From: Thermomicrobiaceae bacterium
GTDB lineage: Bacteria > Chloroflexota > Chloroflexia > Thermomicrobiales > Thermomicrobiaceae
Direction: 5' to 3'
DNA: 52,247 nucleotides
Assembly: GCA_014874455.1 (NCBI GenBank)
Contig: JADBJL010000078.1
Location: 1-52,247, forward strand
Made by a program: the position numbers and the translations under genes. How positions within the stretch are numbered: the first letter of the stretch is position 1; every line of letters starts with the position of its first letter. Of this stretch, positions 13,321 through 33,759 are shown piece by piece. A model generated the notes under the pieces. It was not told the DNA's origin. It made no database searches and saw only the letters and a program-made list of their open reading frames with translations.

Positions 13321-14082
13321 CGAACCCTGCCGTCCCCTCAGGAAGCAAGGGCGACCGTCTTCGGCCGACTCCTCGCCTACCACGTCTGGAACGGTGTGCT
13401 GCCCGTCCTGTTCGAGCACGAGGGGCGAATCATCCTCGATCATCTCGAGCAGAACCCGGTCTCGATCGAGCTGCCGCCGGTTCCGCGCTGGCAGCTCAGC
13501 GGGAAGTGGTACTCGATCCCGGCGACCGGCGCGCCGGCCAGCATCGGGGTTGGGCGCCGCGCTGGCGTCCTCGGCGAGAGCTGCCCGAAGGACACCGAAC
13601 TCTTCGGGCAGATCAGCACGCCCGAGATCGTCGCCCTCGAGATCCAGTACGAGGGAGCGTGGCATCGCTTCCGAGTCTCTGCGCCGCGCTACATCGTTCG
13701 CCTCGAATGCTTCTCCGGCATCCCGGCCGCCTACCGCTGGCTCGACGCGGACGGCGACATCGTCTGGATTCGGAGAACGGCGTGTTGTGACCGGGAGGCA
13801 CCTGGCCGGTTCCGGCCCCTCGGTTTGACCCGCCCTCGTCGGGAGAGTACGATTCAACGAGCGATTGGCCTGGCCACCAGCGAGTGGCCCCACGAAGGTT
13901 CAGGGACCTCGTGCACACGCGCGACGAGATCCGGCTCACCACGCTGGCTAGCTGCGCCGGTTGAGCGGGCAAGCTGGGCCCGGCGGCCCTGGCGCAGGTT
14001 CTGCGCCCGCTCGAGCAGCGCACTGATCCGAACCTGCTCGTTGGTCTCCAGACCAGCGACGACGCTGCCGTCTACCGTCTGA
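13303..14082 (+). CDS. Hypothetical protein, probably truncated remnant
   Basis: The first 160 residues look coding: GC-rich third positions and sensible segments such as LLAYHVWNGVLPVLFEHEGR, EIVALEIQYEGAWHRFRV and GIPAAYRWLDADGDIVW. No family is recognised. After about 13800 the translation becomes Arg/Ser-rich and crosses the selD promoter (13825-13853) and the first 170 bases of selD in another frame. The real product, if any, therefore ends or shifts frame near 13800. The start is unclear: TTG 13303 or ATG 13312, both without a good ribosome-binding site. It adjoins the decayed minus-strand stretch and may be part of the same degraded locus. Confidence 0.35.
   Translation: MKLMLLRTLPSPQEARATVFGRLLAYHVWNGVLPVLFEHEGRIILDHLEQNPVSIELPPVPRWQLSGKWYSIPATGAPASIGVGRRAGVLGESCPKDTELFGQISTPEIVALEIQYEGAWHRFRVSAPRYIVRLECFSGIPAAYRWLDADGDIVWIRRTACCDREAPGRFRPLGLTRPRRESTIQRAIGLATSEWPHEGSGTSCTRATRSGSPRWLAAPVERASWARRPWRRFCARSSSALIRTCSLVSRPATTLPSTV
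13825..13853 (+). promoter_or_regulatory. selD promoter
   Basis: TTGACC (13825-13830), a 17-base spacer, and TACGAT (13848-13853) form a good sigma-70-type promoter. Transcription would start near 13860, about 50 bases before the selD GTG at 13911. Its position supports the selenocysteine reading of selD and argues against coding by the overlapping hypothetical frame. Confidence 0.62.
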
Positions 14083-14975
14083 GCGACGAGCTGGCGCTCG
14101 TCCAGACCGTCGACTTCTTCCCGCCGGTCGTGGACGATCCGTACACCTACGGGGCCATTGCGGCGGCCAACGCGCTGAGCGACGTCTACGCCATGGGCGG
14201 TCAGCCGCTGCTGGCTCTCAACATCGCCGCCTGGCCGGAGGATAAGCCGCTCGAGTACCTGACCCGGGTCTTCGAGGGCGGCGCCGACAAGGCGGCCGAG
14301 GCCGGTATCGTGGTGGCCGGTGGCCACACTGTGACCGACGTCGAGCCGAAGTACGGAATGGTTGTGACCGGCTGCATCCATCCCCAGCGCATCCTGACCA
14401 AGGCCGGCGCCCAACCGGGCGACCTGATCTACCTGACCAAGCCGATCGGCACCGGGGTAATCACCACCGCGCACAAGGCGCAGAAGGTCGATCTCGCTCA
14501 CCTGGAGGCCGCCGTAGCCTGGATGCTCCGGCTGAACCGGCGAGCCTCCGAGCTTGTGCTCGAGCACGGCGCGCATGCGTGCACCGATGTGACGGGCTAC
14601 GGCCTGATCGGCCATGCCACCGAGGTGGCAGTCAAGAGCCGGGTCAAGCTGGTCATCGGCGCGGCCCAGGTTCCGCTCCTCGAGGGAGCCGAGCGCTACG
14701 CCCGCGAGGGCCTGCTGCCGGGTGGCGCCCGGCGCAACCGCGCCTACTACGGCAAGGGGCGGGCGAGCGTGCTGACCTGGTCGCCGGAGATCCCTGGGGT
14801 GTTGTGGGATCTCTTGTTCGACCCGGTCACCTCGGGCGGGCTGCTCTTCACCCTCCCTGCGGAGCGGGCGCCGGCTCTCGAAGCCGCGTTCCGGCAGGCC
14901 GGCGAGCCGCTCTGGCGCATCGGCACAGTCGAAGAGGGTCTGGGGCTGGTGATTCTCCCCAGCCTCAGCGGCTGA
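13911..14975 (+). CDS. selD: Selenophosphate synthetase, selenocysteine-containing (in-frame UGA)
   Basis: Makes selenophosphate from selenide and ATP, the selenium donor for selenocysteine and 2-selenouridine. A conventional frame starts only at 14130 and would lose the active site. Reading upstream in the same frame gives LTTLASCAG-U-AGKLGP, with UGA at 13962-13964 as codon 18 and Lys21 three residues on. This matches Cys17 and Lys20 of E. coli SelD, where Cys or Sec is allowed. Sequence continues without break through TSDDAAVYRL, FFPPVVDDPYTYGAIAAANALSDVYAMGG and DVTGYGLIGH, giving 354 residues. GTG at 13911 is the likely start. A SECIS-like hairpin follows the UGA at 13991-14007. rsmA and ispE lie downstream. 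Confidence 0.88.
13991..14007 (+). promoter_or_regulatory. SECIS-like hairpin of selD
   Basis: GGCGCA (13991-13996) pairs with TGCGCC (14002-14007) around the loop GGTTC. The loop begins 33 bases after the end of the UGA codon, within the spacing reported for bacterial SECIS elements. The leading GGU of the loop fits the SelB-binding pattern. It lies inside the coding sequence, as bacterial SECIS elements do. Confidence 0.6.
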
Positions 14976-29161: not shown

Positions 29162-31111
29162 ATGGGGACGACGATCCTCTCTACTGAGAAGCTGGCGAAG
29201 CGGTTCGGCGCCGAGGAGGTCTTCTCCGACGTGTCGTTCCAAATCCAGGAACGAGACCGGATCGGCCTGGTCGGCGTCAACGGTGCCGGCAAGAGCACGC
29301 TCCTGCGAATCCTCGCCGGTCTCGACCAGCCAGACGATGGGGCGCTGATCGTCCAGCGGGGGTTACGCGTCGGCTATCTGGCGCAGGAGACGGCAGTCGA
29401 TCCTGACCGCACGGTGCTCGACGCCGCGTTGGAGGCAATGGACGACGTGCGGCAACTCGGTCGTGACCTGGAGTCCCTCGCCGAGGCCATCGCGTGCGCG
29501 CGAGGCGACGAGCTGGAGCGGCTGCTCCTGGCCTACGAGCAGAAGAGTCTCCGCTACGAAGCGGCCGGAGGCTATGACCTGGAGCGGCGAGCAGCGGAAG
29601 TCCTCACCGGCCTCGGCTTCAGCGAGGAGGATCTCCCGCGGCCAGCGGGGCAACTCAGCGGGGGCCAGCGCACTCGGCTGGCGCTGGCTCGCGCGCTCCT
29701 GGCCGACCCGGATCTCCTGCTCCTCGACGAGCCGACGAACCACCTCGACCTGCAGGCCCTCACCTGGCTGGAAGGGTTCCTCCGCGCCTGGCGCGGAGCT
29801 TTCGTGGTCGTCTCGCACGACCGCTACTTCCTCGACCAGGTGACCGAGCGCACACTGGAGCTCAGCTTCGGCCGGCTCGACGAGTATCCGGGCAACTACT
29901 CGCGCTACCTCGAGCTGCGGGCCGAGCGGCTGGCCCGGCGCTGGGCCGAGTACGAGGCCCAGCAGGAGTTCATCCGCAAGGAAGAGGAGTTCATCCGGCG
30001 CTACCGGGCCGGCCAGCGTGCCCGCGAGGCGCGCGGCCGGGCGACCCGGCTGGCCCGGATCGAGCGGATCGAGCGCCCGCGAGAGCACGAGGCGCTGCGG
30101 CTCCAGCTCGCTACCGGTCTGCGCAGTGGGCGCCTCGTGCTCACCACCAGCGAGCTGGTCATCGGCTACCCGGCCAGCGATGGGTCAGAGCCGGTCGTGC
30201 TCTGCCGCACGCCGGAGCTGCTGGTCGAGCGCGGCGAGCGCGTCGCGATCATCGGCCCCAACGGCGCTGGCAAGACGACTCTGATCCGCACCTTGTTGGG
30301 CGAGCACCCGCCGCTGTCCGGCCTGATCCGCTACGGCACCGCAGTTCGCCCGGCCTACTACGCGCAAGGCCACGAGCAGCTCGACCCGAAGCTGACGGTG
30401 CTGACCACCATCATGCGGCGGCAGTCGATGAGCGAGGAAGCGGCGCGCACCCTCGCCGGCCGCTTCCTCTTCAGCGGCGACGACGTCCTTAAGCCGGTCA
30501 GCGCGCTGAGCGGCGGCGAGCGCAGCCGGCTCGCACTGGCGCTCTTGACGCTGGAGCGCGGCAATCTCTTGATCCTGGACGAGCCGACCAACCACCTCGA
30601 TATCGCCAGCCGTGAGGCGCTCGAATCCGTGCTGGAGGACTTCGACGGCACCATCCTGTTCGTCTCCCACGACCGCTACCTGATCGACCGGCTCGCGACT
30701 CGCGTCTGGTCGATCGAGGACGGCGCCTTGCGGATCACGCCGGGCAACTACACCGACTACCAGCGCCAGCGAGCCGCCACGCCGGACGGAGCGGCCCCAG
30801 CGCGCCCAGCGTCCGGTACCCCGGATGGGCGACCGCGCCTGGTCGAAGAGGTGCCGAGGACAGCCCGGCGCTCGCCGCGTCAGCTCGAGCGCGAGCTGCG
30901 GGCCGCCGAGGAGCGGATCGGCGAGCTGGAGGAGCGGCTCAACGCGCTGGCCGATGACCTGGCCGAGGCGACGGCCCGACGAGACATCGAAGCGATCGCC
31001 GAACTGGGCTCGGCCTATGAGGCGACGCAGGAGGAACTGGACGCGGCTTACCGGCGCTGGGAGGCACTCCAGGAGGAACTGGACGCCGTGAGTGGAGGCG
31101 TCGAGCGGTGA
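29162..31111 (+). CDS. ABC-F family ATPase (ribosome-associated)
   Basis: A 649-residue soluble protein with two ABC domains and no membrane segments. Domain 1 has Walker A GVNGAGKST (38-46), LSGGQRTRLALARALL and LLLLDEPTNHLD. A charged linker (RYLELRAERLARRWAEYEAQ) matches the P-site tRNA interaction motif region. Domain 2 has GPNGAGKTT, LSGGERSRLALALL and LLILDEPTNHLD. The C terminus is a predicted coiled coil (about 575-645), as in Uup and similar proteins. ABC-F proteins act on the ribosome in translation or antibiotic protection. ATG 29162 is chosen; an upstream frame to 29084 is less likely. It overlaps coaE by four bases. Confidence 0.92.
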   Translation: MGTTILSTEKLAKRFGAEEVFSDVSFQIQERDRIGLVGVNGAGKSTLLRILAGLDQPDDGALIVQRGLRVGYLAQETAVDPDRTVLDAALEAMDDVRQLGRDLESLAEAIACARGDELERLLLAYEQKSLRYEAAGGYDLERRAAEVLTGLGFSEEDLPRPAGQLSGGQRTRLALARALLADPDLLLLDEPTNHLDLQALTWLEGFLRAWRGAFVVVSHDRYFLDQVTERTLELSFGRLDEYPGNYSRYLELRAERLARRWAEYEAQQEFIRKEEEFIRRYRAGQRAREARGRATRLARIERIERPREHEALRLQLATGLRSGRLVLTTSELVIGYPASDGSEPVVLCRTPELLVERGERVAIIGPNGAGKTTLIRTLLGEHPPLSGLIRYGTAVRPAYYAQGHEQLDPKLTVLTTIMRRQSMSEEAARTLAGRFLFSGDDVLKPVSALSGGERSRLALALLTLERGNLLILDEPTNHLDIASREALESVLEDFDGTILFVSHDRYLIDRLATRVWSIEDGALRITPGNYTDYQRQRAATPDGAAPARPASGTPDGRPRLVEEVPRTARRSPRQLERELRAAEERIGELEERLNALADDLAEATARRDIEAIAELGSAYEATQEELDAAYRRWEALQEELDAVSGGVER

Positions 31112-31728
31112 GCCGGGCACGGCCGTACGTCATCGGTCTGACCGGGAACATCGCCTGCGGGAAGTCGCTGGTGCTGCGCACGCTGGCCGAACTCGGAGCC
31201 GAAACCATCGACGCCGACCAGGTGGCCCGGGAGGTGATGAGCCGGGAGAGCGCGGTGCTGGCGGAAGTAGCGCGGGCGTTCGGGCCGGAGGTCATGAACC
31301 CCGACGGCAGCCTCGACCGCCGCGCGCTCGCCCGGATCGTCTTCAGCGACCCCCAGCAGCTCGCGCGGCTGGAGGCGATCGTCCACCCGCCGGTCGTCGA
31401 GCTGATCCGCCGGCGCCTGGCCGAGAGCCGGAGCCCGGTGGTCGTCATCGACGCGATCAAGCTGTTCGAGGCGAGCCTCGCTAGCGACTGCGACGAAGTG
31501 TGGGTCGTCACCTGCACGCCGGAGCAGCAGCTCGCCCGGCTGATGGCGCGCGACCGGATCAGCCAGGAAGAGGCGCTGCTGCGCATCCGAGCCCAGCCCC
31601 CACAGGAGGAGAAGGTGCGCCGAGCCGATCGTGTCATCGACAACAGCGGCACGATCGAGGACACCATCGCGCAGGTGCGGGCGGCGTGGGCGGCGCTGCC
31701 GATTCACCGAGGCGATATTGGGGAATAG
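31108..31728 (+). CDS. coaE: Dephospho-CoA kinase
   Basis: A 206-residue P-loop kinase that phosphorylates the 3'-hydroxyl of dephospho-CoA, the last step of coenzyme A synthesis. Motifs are the P-loop GLTGNIACGKS, the substrate segment TIDADQVAREV, HPPVVELIRRRL, a VVIDAIKLFEA segment in place of the usual DxPLLFE, and VVTCTPEQQLARLMARD. The C terminus has the RADRVIDNSGTIEDT block of CoaE. The GTG at 31108 overlaps the stop of the ABC-F gene, which couples translation. The selenoprotein gene follows after about 90 bases. Confidence 0.92.
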   Translation: MSRARPYVIGLTGNIACGKSLVLRTLAELGAETIDADQVAREVMSRESAVLAEVARAFGPEVMNPDGSLDRRALARIVFSDPQQLARLEAIVHPPVVELIRRRLAESRSPVVVIDAIKLFEASLASDCDEVWVVTCTPEQQLARLMARDRISQEEALLRIRAQPPQEEKVRRADRVIDNSGTIEDTIAQVRAAWAALPIHRGDIGE

Positions 31729-31819
31729 CGTCGCACCCGCGAAGCGTTACAGCATACCGAGGCCGGATGCGGGCAGCCGGGATGCGTTTCCCACCAGGAG
31801 AGTCGGAAAGGTAAGGAAG

Positions 31820-32437
31820 ATGAGCGAGCCGATCCGCGTCGAGATCTGGTACGACTACGCTTGACCGTACGTCTACACTGCAGCGGTCTTGCTGCACTCG
31901 GTTAAGGATCGGACGAACGGCCAACTCGATCTCCGCTGGCGCTACTTCTCCCTCGAGCAGGTGAACCAGAAGCACGGGCCCGACTGGAAGCTCTGGGAGC
32001 AGCCGGAAACATACCCCAGCCGCGGGCGATTGGCCTGGAAGGGCGCCGAGGCGGCGCGGCAGCAGGGCCCCCAGGCGTTCGAGCGCTTCCACCTCGCCCT
32101 GCTCCGGCTGCGGCACGAGGAGAGCTGGGAGCTGACCAGGCCGGAAACGATCCTCGAGGCAGCCCGCAGAGCTGGGCTCGATCTCGATCGCTTCCAGCGC
32201 GATTTCGAGCAGGCCACGCTCGACGGCCTCGCCCGCGACCACGAAGAGGGCGTGCAGCGGCACGGCGTCTTCGGCACGCCAACGCTGGTCTTCGAGAACG
32301 GCCGGGCGGCCTACCTCAAGCTGCGCCCGCTCCCGCCGGAGTCCGAGTATGTCGCCGTCTGGGAGCGATTGAAGGACATCATCGCTGACCGCCCGTACAT
32401 CGAGGAGATCAAGCGGCCAGTTCCGCCAGCGCGCTGA
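31820..32437 (+). CDS. DsbA/FrnE-like thioredoxin-fold selenoprotein (in-frame UGA)
   Basis: A 205-residue thioredoxin-fold protein of the DsbA/FrnE/HCCA-isomerase group. Conventional calling ends at a UGA (31862-31864) after 14 residues or begins late at 31889. Reading the UGA as selenocysteine gives VEIWYDYA-U-PYVYTAAVLL, with Sec15 exactly where this family has its active-site Cys (YDYxCP). The other Cys of CxxC is Val, so this is a single-Sec site. The cis-proline loop GVFGTPTLVFENG is intact near the C terminus. ATG 31820 follows AAAGGTAAGGAAG. A SECIS-like hairpin with loop GGUCUU lies at 31879-31896. There is no signal peptide, so it should be cytoplasmic. The substrate is unknown; redox or isomerase activity is inferred. 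Confidence 0.88.
31879..31896 (+). promoter_or_regulatory. SECIS element of the DsbA-like selenoprotein gene
   Basis: TGCAGC (31879-31884) pairs perfectly with GCTGCA (31891-31896) around the loop GGTCTT. The loop starts 21 bases after the UGA. The GGUCU apical loop is the one used by E. coli fdhF, which SelB recognises. Position, stem length and loop all fit a bacterial SECIS element. Confidence 0.78.
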
Positions 32438-32583: not shown

Positions 32584-33759
32584 GTGGACGCCTCAATTCG
32601 CCTTGGAAAGATCCGCGGGATCGAGATCGGTATCCACTACACCTGGCTGGTCGTCTTCGGCCTCCTCACGTACTCGCTCGCGGTCGGGGTCTTCCCCGAC
32701 TGGTACCCTGGCTGGGCACCCGAGACGTACTGGGCGGTCGGCGCGCTTGCCAGCCTGCTGCTCTTCGCCTCCGTGCTCGCGCACGAGTTGGGGCATTCTG
32801 TGGTCGCGCAGTCACGCGGCATTCCGGTCGCGAGTATTGTCTTGTTCATCTTCGGTGGCGTGGCGCAGATCGTCGAAGAGGCACGACGGGCGATCGATGA
32901 GTTCCTGATCGCCGTTGCTGGCCCGCTGGTGAGTGTCGTCATCGGGGTGAGCTCGCTCGTGCTGTGGCCCATCGCTGAGGGTGTCAGCGAGCCGCTGGGG
33001 GCGATCCTGCGCTACCTTGGCTTCGCCAACCTCATCCTCGTCGCCTTCAACCTTATCCCCGCGTATCCGCTCGACGGCGGGCGTGTGCTGCGTGCCTTCC
33101 TCTGGGGAGCGCTCGACAGCGTCTACCGCGCGACCCGCATCGCCTCAGCAGTCGGCGTGCTGATCGGCTTCCTGTTCATGGCCGGAGGCATCTTCCTGGT
33201 CTTCCGCGCGCCGCTGTCGGGCATCTGGCTGGTCGCCATCGGCTGGTTCCTCCAGAGCGCCGCCCAGCAGTCGTACCAGCAACTGATGGTGAGGCGCCTC
33301 TTCGAAGGCGTCCGGGTCGGGCAGCTCATGGACAGGGAACCGGTCACCATCTCGCCCGAGGTACCGGTCGATCAGCTCGTCGATGCACTGCTCAGCTACA
33401 ACGTGCGCAGCTTCCCGGTGATCGAGGACGGACGCCTGGTGGGAATCGTCACGCTGACCGATGTCCGCAACGCGCCGCGAAGCGAATGGGAGTCGCGTCG
33501 CGTGCGAGATCTGATGACCCCATTCGACCGCCTGGTCATCGCCACGCCAGATTCCGACATCGAGAGCGTGCTCCGTGCGATGGCGCTGCACGATATCCAT
33601 CAGGTACCGGTCGTGCGCGACCGCACGCTGCTCGGGCTCCTGACTCGCAACGCCCTGCTCCGCTTCCTCCAGCTCCGCCAGGAACTGATGCGGAGCCCGG
33701 AGGAAATCGCCCAGATGGTTGAGAAGCGCAGCCGACCATCCGACCTTCCCGGAGACTGA
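32584..33759 (+). CDS. M50-family site-2-type metalloprotease with CBS domains
   Basis: A 391-residue membrane protein. Hydrophobic helices occur at about 18-38, 50-78, 108-130, 142-165 and 175-215. The zinc motif HELGH is at 67-71, in a helix, and the third ligand motif NLIPAYPLDGGRVL follows. Two CBS domains (about 240-370) bind adenosyl nucleotides and probably gate activity. This architecture is that of SpoIVFB/Rip-like intramembrane proteases. GTG 32584 follows GGAGAGGA. A TATAAT at 32500-32505 may be its -10, although no good -35 is visible. It stands alone, so no substrate is suggested; anti-sigma factors or signal peptides are typical targets of the family. Confidence 0.9.
   Translation: MDASIRLGKIRGIEIGIHYTWLVVFGLLTYSLAVGVFPDWYPGWAPETYWAVGALASLLLFASVLAHELGHSVVAQSRGIPVASIVLFIFGGVAQIVEEARRAIDEFLIAVAGPLVSVVIGVSSLVLWPIAEGVSEPLGAILRYLGFANLILVAFNLIPAYPLDGGRVLRAFLWGALDSVYRATRIASAVGVLIGFLFMAGGIFLVFRAPLSGIWLVAIGWFLQSAAQQSYQQLMVRRLFEGVRVGQLMDREPVTISPEVPVDQLVDALLSYNVRSFPVIEDGRLVGIVTLTDVRNAPRSEWESRRVRDLMTPFDRLVIATPDSDIESVLRAMALHDIHQVPVVRDRTLLGLLTRNALLRFLQLRQELMRSPEEIAQMVEKRSRPSDLPGD

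Follow-up and report, generated by a model that had tools for sequence, protein, structure and literature searches.

The forward strand of a 52,247-nucleotide contig from a Thermomicrobiaceae bacterium (this whole stretch is called the window here) almost certainly carries, on the sequence evidence laid out below, a genuine selenoprotein gene at positions 31820-32437. Its predicted product, 205 residues long, is a cytosolic protein of the DsbA fold with a single selenocysteine (Sec), and it belongs to the DR2335-like (UxxV / DxxUP) family.

The reading frame is open except for one in-frame TGA at 31862-31864, and it ends with a TGA stop at 32435-32437. When the internal TGA is read as Sec, the translation starts MSEPIRVEIWYDYA-U-PYVYTAAVLLHS, and the active-site context becomes D-Y-A-U-P-Y-V, in which Sec 15 is aligned to the invariant Cys of Cys-type homologues. 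A purine-rich stretch at 31803-31819 of the same strand, 5' of the ATG, reads as a probable ribosome binding region. An earlier note on this DNA had described a 205-residue frame with a UGA inside it and a site where one Sec stands without a second Cys; our translation agrees on both points, as the whole protein is free of Cys. The source genome, that of a heat-loving member of the Chloroflexota, groups with Thermalbibacter, and the T. longus homologue is 93% identical to the window protein.

The active-site position is occupied by either Sec or Cys in all aligned homologues

Among 101 relatives screened, a match was found in 57 genomes, while searching 84,980 species yielded 80 loci, partly the same records as in the relatives' set. 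After removal of duplicates, 107 distinct sites could be aligned to residue 15, coming from Thermomicrobiales, from Dehalococcoidia including SAR202, and from one metagenome-assembled genome (MAG) labelled Proteobacteria. This column holds TGA at 51 sites and a Cys codon at 56 (46 TGC and 10 TGT), with TAA, TAG or any other residue at none of the 107, which bears out the proposal of the earlier note that UGA stands in place of the active-site Cys. The other three members of the genus all carry TGA here as well. Among Cys forms the nearest is L020 (67% identity), which is nested in the window gene's own clade, and therefore a switch between Sec and Cys must have occurred within the family. In a tree built without residue 15 and the 11 residues that follow it, by a quick method which does not infer direction, we counted at least 10 Sec/Cys changes, of which well-supported branches force 4, though the exact number is soft. 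Taken over more than 50 relatives across the phylum, this pattern suggests that the DR2335-like UxxV family has switched repeatedly between Sec and Cys.

There is hardly any room left for the view that the gene is a pseudogene, a sequencing error or a plain stop, in which case the product would be only 14 residues long and the TTG at 31889 would be the start of a shorter protein. An open reading frame of 182 amino acids does begin at this TTG 3' of the TGA, and an automatic caller would pick it, but TGA recurs in three further assemblies of the genus and altogether in 51 distinct sequences and is never replaced by TAA or TAG, and this is what rules the view out; moreover, the codons before the TGA vary almost only silently among members of the genus (e.g. 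3 silent and 0 replacing changes of 14), the first 14 residues make up strand 1 in the AlphaFold2 model, with high confidence, and the codons after the TGA are biased toward the hairpin described in the next section.

Two further observations were made during this comparison. A distant DsbA-like clade of the same class (L055, L056, L057 and L058; about 27% identity) also has a TGA at the active site, in the motif WAEYT-U-PW or WAEYY-U-PW, and is apparently a separate Sec type. In the MAG labelled Proteobacteria there is a Sec form (L082, 3001-3597) that is 55% identical to the window protein and adjoins a LUD/Fe-S (LutB-like) gene; this may reflect either gene transfer or a mis-binned contig.

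A hairpin at a fixed distance from the UGA accompanies Sec but not Cys

The sequence TGCAGC-GGTCTT-GCTGCA, an inverted repeat whose first base (31879) is the 15th past the UGA, corresponds to a putative bSECIS upper hairpin, UGCAGCG-GUCU-UGCUGCA (31879-31896, forward strand), with the apical loop beginning 21 nt after the UGA and a GU in the loop. The published bSECIS model demands a loop of 3-9 nt, a stem of 4-16 bp, a UGA-loop spacing of 16-37 nt, a G in the first two loop positions and an energy of -7.5 or lower (PMC13188914). In the window we found a 7-bp stem, the loop GUCU, a spacing of 21 and -8.9 kcal/mol, and the 51 nt from the UGA onward fold into the expected hairpin. The hairpin that the earlier note had placed 15 bases after the UGA, with a loop like that of E. 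coli fdhF, is thus where it was said to be, and it conforms to the bSECIS model. The GGUCU apical loop just 3' of the UGA is indeed common to both (we checked fdhF in E. coli genomes), while in the window the UGA and the loop are 2 nt further apart, and the stem is paired throughout and has no equivalent of the bulged U known from the fdhF stem. A scan of the window at Rfam gathering thresholds gave no hits.

The folding energy itself is not exceptional when compared with dinucleotide shuffles (z = -0.42). As this gave no support, we turned to codon and comparative tests. Upon 1000 synonymous recodings of the window sequence, a bSECIS-type structure of equal stability appeared in 1.5% (p = 0.015); for other members of the family this fraction ranged from 0.4% to 61% in Sec forms and from 32% to 100% in seven Cys homologues, which thus lack this codon bias. 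Within the main clade, which consists of 47 Sec and 54 Cys forms, the apical loop begins 20-21 nt past the UGA in 44/47 Sec forms, and no fixed hairpin position was seen among the Cys forms. All five core pairs are present in 25/46 Sec against 4/54 Cys forms (Fisher p 4e-7, with related sequences counted apart), and where the outer pair 19-34 is missing, there is usually an inner C-G pair 24-29 instead. A GU at loop positions 25-26 occurs in 40/47 Sec and 7/54 Cys forms, many relatives having GUGU or GUUU loops instead of GGUCU.

The motif U-P-x-V was found in 47/47 Sec forms of the main clade. The residues AAV at +6 to +8 after the site are present in 39/47 Sec and in 0/54 Cys forms, and for this reason the RNA signal appears to set the residues beside the active site. 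Within Dehalococcoidia, one subgroup (L133, L136, L142, L148, L151 and L154) has AGI instead of AAV after Sec, together with weak hairpins; the Sec forms L133, L136, L148, L151 and L154 have hairpins that are weak or unusual under the bSECIS model, and this subgroup perhaps uses a different SECIS shape.

The genome encodes the complete machinery for selenocysteine insertion

Two kinds of observation had been named in the earlier note as speaking against a selenoprotein, namely relatives with a stop at this site and no conserved sequence after it, and a genome devoid of Sec machinery. What we found instead is that relatives keep the TGA together with the hairpin, and that SelA, SelB, SelD and tRNA-Sec are all present in the source genome, which is 99.9% complete. 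SelA scores 534.7 bits; SelB, on contig C80, scores 326.9 bits, or 352 when its C-terminal piece is included, against a cut-off of 242; and a tRNA-Sec with the anticodon UCA lies at C96:287-383 (73.5 bits), a tRNA scan of the window being empty. The gene for selenophosphate synthetase, selD, is located in the window itself (13932-14975, forward strand; TIGR00476, 373.7 bits, E 7e-112) and has one in-frame TGA of its own, at 13962-13964 (ASCAG-U-AGKLG). As selD is thus itself a Sec form, the enzyme providing the selenium donor needs selenium for its own synthesis. In the plain list of open reading frames, selD begins late, at 14130.

SelA was found above its cut-off in 16/16 genomes with a Sec form of the protein, in comparison to 15/27 genomes with a Cys form (p 0.001); with SelA fragments scored as present, the p value becomes 0.018.

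The protein is most similar to DR2335 and matches a catalogued Sec type

The window protein belongs to the DsbA superfamily, as the earlier note had it: the Pfam DSBA domain (PF01323) is matched with E 9e-17 and 61.9 bits (cut-off 25.6). No NCBIfam model passed, the best being NF041057 with 20 bits against a cut-off of 190. The AlphaFold2 model has a pLDDT of 94.5. In the family alignment D12, P16, W40, N49 and H99 are invariant, the cis-Pro loop FGTPT and the C-terminal IKRP are conserved, and no second conserved Cys was seen.

The best match among solved structures is DR2335 of D. radiodurans (PDB 7dk9, 7dka; Z 25.1, rmsd 1.8 A over 194 residues), followed by Rv2466c (Z 18), kappa GST and YjbH (Z 16-17) and FrnE (Z 15). 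DR2335 is likewise a cytosolic DsbA fold with a single Cys, it is similar in sequence over residues 7-203 (E 5e-18), and FSL-Q-N, GVFGTPT and the C-terminal RPVP are common to both proteins. They differ in that DR2335 has Cys (CPYA) where the window protein has Sec (UPYV), and identity is about 30%. Fold, full-length similarity, a single redox residue and the absence of CxxC place the window protein among DR2335-like proteins. According to a Deinococcus review, the function of DR_2335 has not been reported (PMC8945050), and our literature search for a paper on structure 7DK9 found none.

The earlier note regarded a Sec form of such a protein as unusual, which does not hold, since a DsbA type with UxxV / DxxUP is already in the literature. 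The Global Ocean Sampling selenoproteome of 2008 lists 'DsbA 3' (pfam01323, UxxV), for which it counts 5 sequences and 72 Cys homologues (PMC2398784). It shares the Pfam family, the single Sec and UxxV with the window protein, and its marine source fits many SAR202/Dehalococcoidia members; on the other hand, the table holds five marine sequences and the match is one of motif and Pfam family only. A review of 2026 has an entry for 'DsbA-like protein form 2' (PF01323, DxxUP, MDP6049977.1; PMC13188914, citing Peng et al. 2016, PMC5029168), to which D-Y-A-U-P, the one Sec and the domain correspond, while the 'crotonase' name has no counterpart here. With PF01323, both motifs and one Sec, the window protein matches this catalogued type, on the basis of motif, domain and source. 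We found no literature report placing the type in Chloroflexota or giving its function, and the main text of deep-Sep has no mention of DsbA.

A lone selenol may act as a reductase that depends on a small thiol

We propose the following mechanism, of which the insertion of Sec is supported by the sequence comparison. SelB and Sec-tRNA(UCA) would bind the hairpin 20-21 nt 3' of the UGA at 31862 and insert Sec, which would then occupy the first position of U-P-Y-V, at the start of helix 1 in a cytosolic thioredoxin fold of the DsbA type. The selenol may attack a disulfide or an oxidised thiol of a substrate that lies against the cis-Pro loop (GVFGTPT), and, as there is no resolving Cys, the selenenylsulfide would need a second molecule, most probably a thiol of low molecular weight, for its resolution. 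By analogy, the protein would be a thiol-dependent peroxidase or a monoselenol reductase acting on mixed disulfides between proteins and small thiols, and we consider the reductase mechanism reasonably probable.

The analogy is to DsbA-type mycoredoxins. In NCgl2478, the ability to reduce a mycothiol mixed disulfide is retained by the C24S variant, in effect a single-Cys protein, and lost in C21S (PMC8280269). Rv2466c and NCgl2478 share with the window protein the cytosolic DsbA fold (Z 18 for Rv2466c) and a nucleophile at the same place, and a monothiol mode is possible for them, just as proposed here. Unlike the window protein, to which identity is 21%, they have a resolving Cys (CPWC/CPFC), depend on mycothiol and contain no Sec; the CPW/FC motif of the DsbA-type mycoredoxins is replaced by UPYV here. 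As for the small thiol itself, the source genome encodes an MshA-like glycosyltransferase (L158, C19:7392-8618; 380 bits) and a second CysS/MshC-like ligase (L156, C80:37640-38788; 403 bits), both scoring under the curated mycothiol cut-offs, with an equal score for cysS in the case of the MshC-like gene. From these genes a mycothiol-like thiol pathway outside Actinomycetota is possible. Of the bacillithiol genes, BshC is absent from this genome and BshA is under its cut-off. Which small thiol is the partner of the window protein is a guess.

A distinctly less probable option is that Sec serves as a nucleophile toward small electrophiles or peroxides, as in a transferase of the kappa-class GST or HCCA-isomerase kind or in a peroxidase, and not as a disulfide reductase. 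Kappa GST and HCCA isomerase have the same fold as our model (Z 15-17) and, like the window protein, no second active-site Cys. However, these enzymes have Ser at the nucleophile position and bind glutathione, while the position is strictly Sec or Cys here, which indicates chalcogen redox chemistry, and Rv2466c and DR2335 are structurally nearer.

The conserved linkage to coaE reflects inherited gene order

Directly upstream of the gene lies coaE, encoding dephospho-CoA kinase (31108-31728, forward strand; Pfam CoaE 7e-57; synteny across Thermomicrobiales). Its downstream neighbour encodes a site-2-type metalloprotease with CBS domains (Peptidase_M50; 32584-33759, forward strand), which is a conserved neighbour only within the own family. 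In nearly all Thermomicrobiales loci coaE is found 5' of the gene, whether this encodes a Sec or a Cys form, and coaE is in turn usually preceded by an ABC-F gene, so that this neighbour, called unusual in the earlier note, is an ordinary one in the order. CoA can act as a small thiol, and one might thus imagine a function linked to coenzyme A, such as reduction of CoA mixed disulfides. We regard this as improbable: the linkage is confined to one order, is the same for both forms and includes the unrelated ABC-F gene, whereas the neighbouring gene in Dehalococcoidia and related Chloroflexi is frequently rnc (6/7 tested). The connection with coaE is therefore reduced to simple inherited gene order, and neither coaE nor rnc points to a redox pathway.

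The window protein is neither a FrnE nor a classical DsbA

Least probable among the functional readings, and only barely worth keeping, is a Sec version of FrnE/DsbA that forms or isomerises protein disulfides. Apart from the Pfam DSBA match, it draws on a weak similarity between residues 1-47 and D. radiodurans FrnE (E 2e-4), and FrnE (PDB 5cnw, 5cp1) is a cytosolic member of the DsbA superfamily as well. Yet in fold FrnE matches less closely than DR2335 does (Z 15 vs 25), and CxxC is the defining feature of FrnE (PMC8945050), which often has a C-terminal CxxxxC in addition; the window protein has neither. Cys at the fourth motif position was found in 0/101 main-clade forms (0/54 Cys and 0/47 Sec). 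Without CxxC and a second Cys, the protein is not FrnE, an identity with classical DsbA is ruled out on the same ground, and the name FrnE-like given in the earlier note has to be replaced by a reference to the single-Cys DR2335, the nearest solved protein. The lack of a second Cys also means that there is no internal disulfide to donate. Furthermore, no signal peptide is visible and strand 1 begins at residue 5, which leaves no visible room for a secretion signal; the protein is thus probably non-secreted, as had been proposed, and located in the reducing cytosol. We infer that it is not a catalyst of oxidative folding like secreted DsbA, and the small-thiol-dependent reductase set out above is the reading we retain.

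What the family may tell about selenocysteine use

In its broadest and most tentative form, our proposal is that of a 'seleno-mycoredoxin', a lone-selenol reductase dependent on a small thiol and spread Chloroflexota-wide (Thermomicrobiales, Dehalococcoidia, SAR202), which would have undergone at least 4 and probably about 10 Sec/Cys switches, with AAV dictated by SECIS and released once Sec is lost. Ordinary annotation would truncate the window gene, and the UxxV / DxxUP DsbA is a selenoprotein type that has already been catalogued but never studied. With the sites gathered here, 51 Sec and 56 Cys and almost all of them from a single phylum, two questions become testable: the role of a selenol that has no partner Cys within a cytosolic DsbA fold, and the way in which Sec/Cys switching and SECIS constrain protein sequence.
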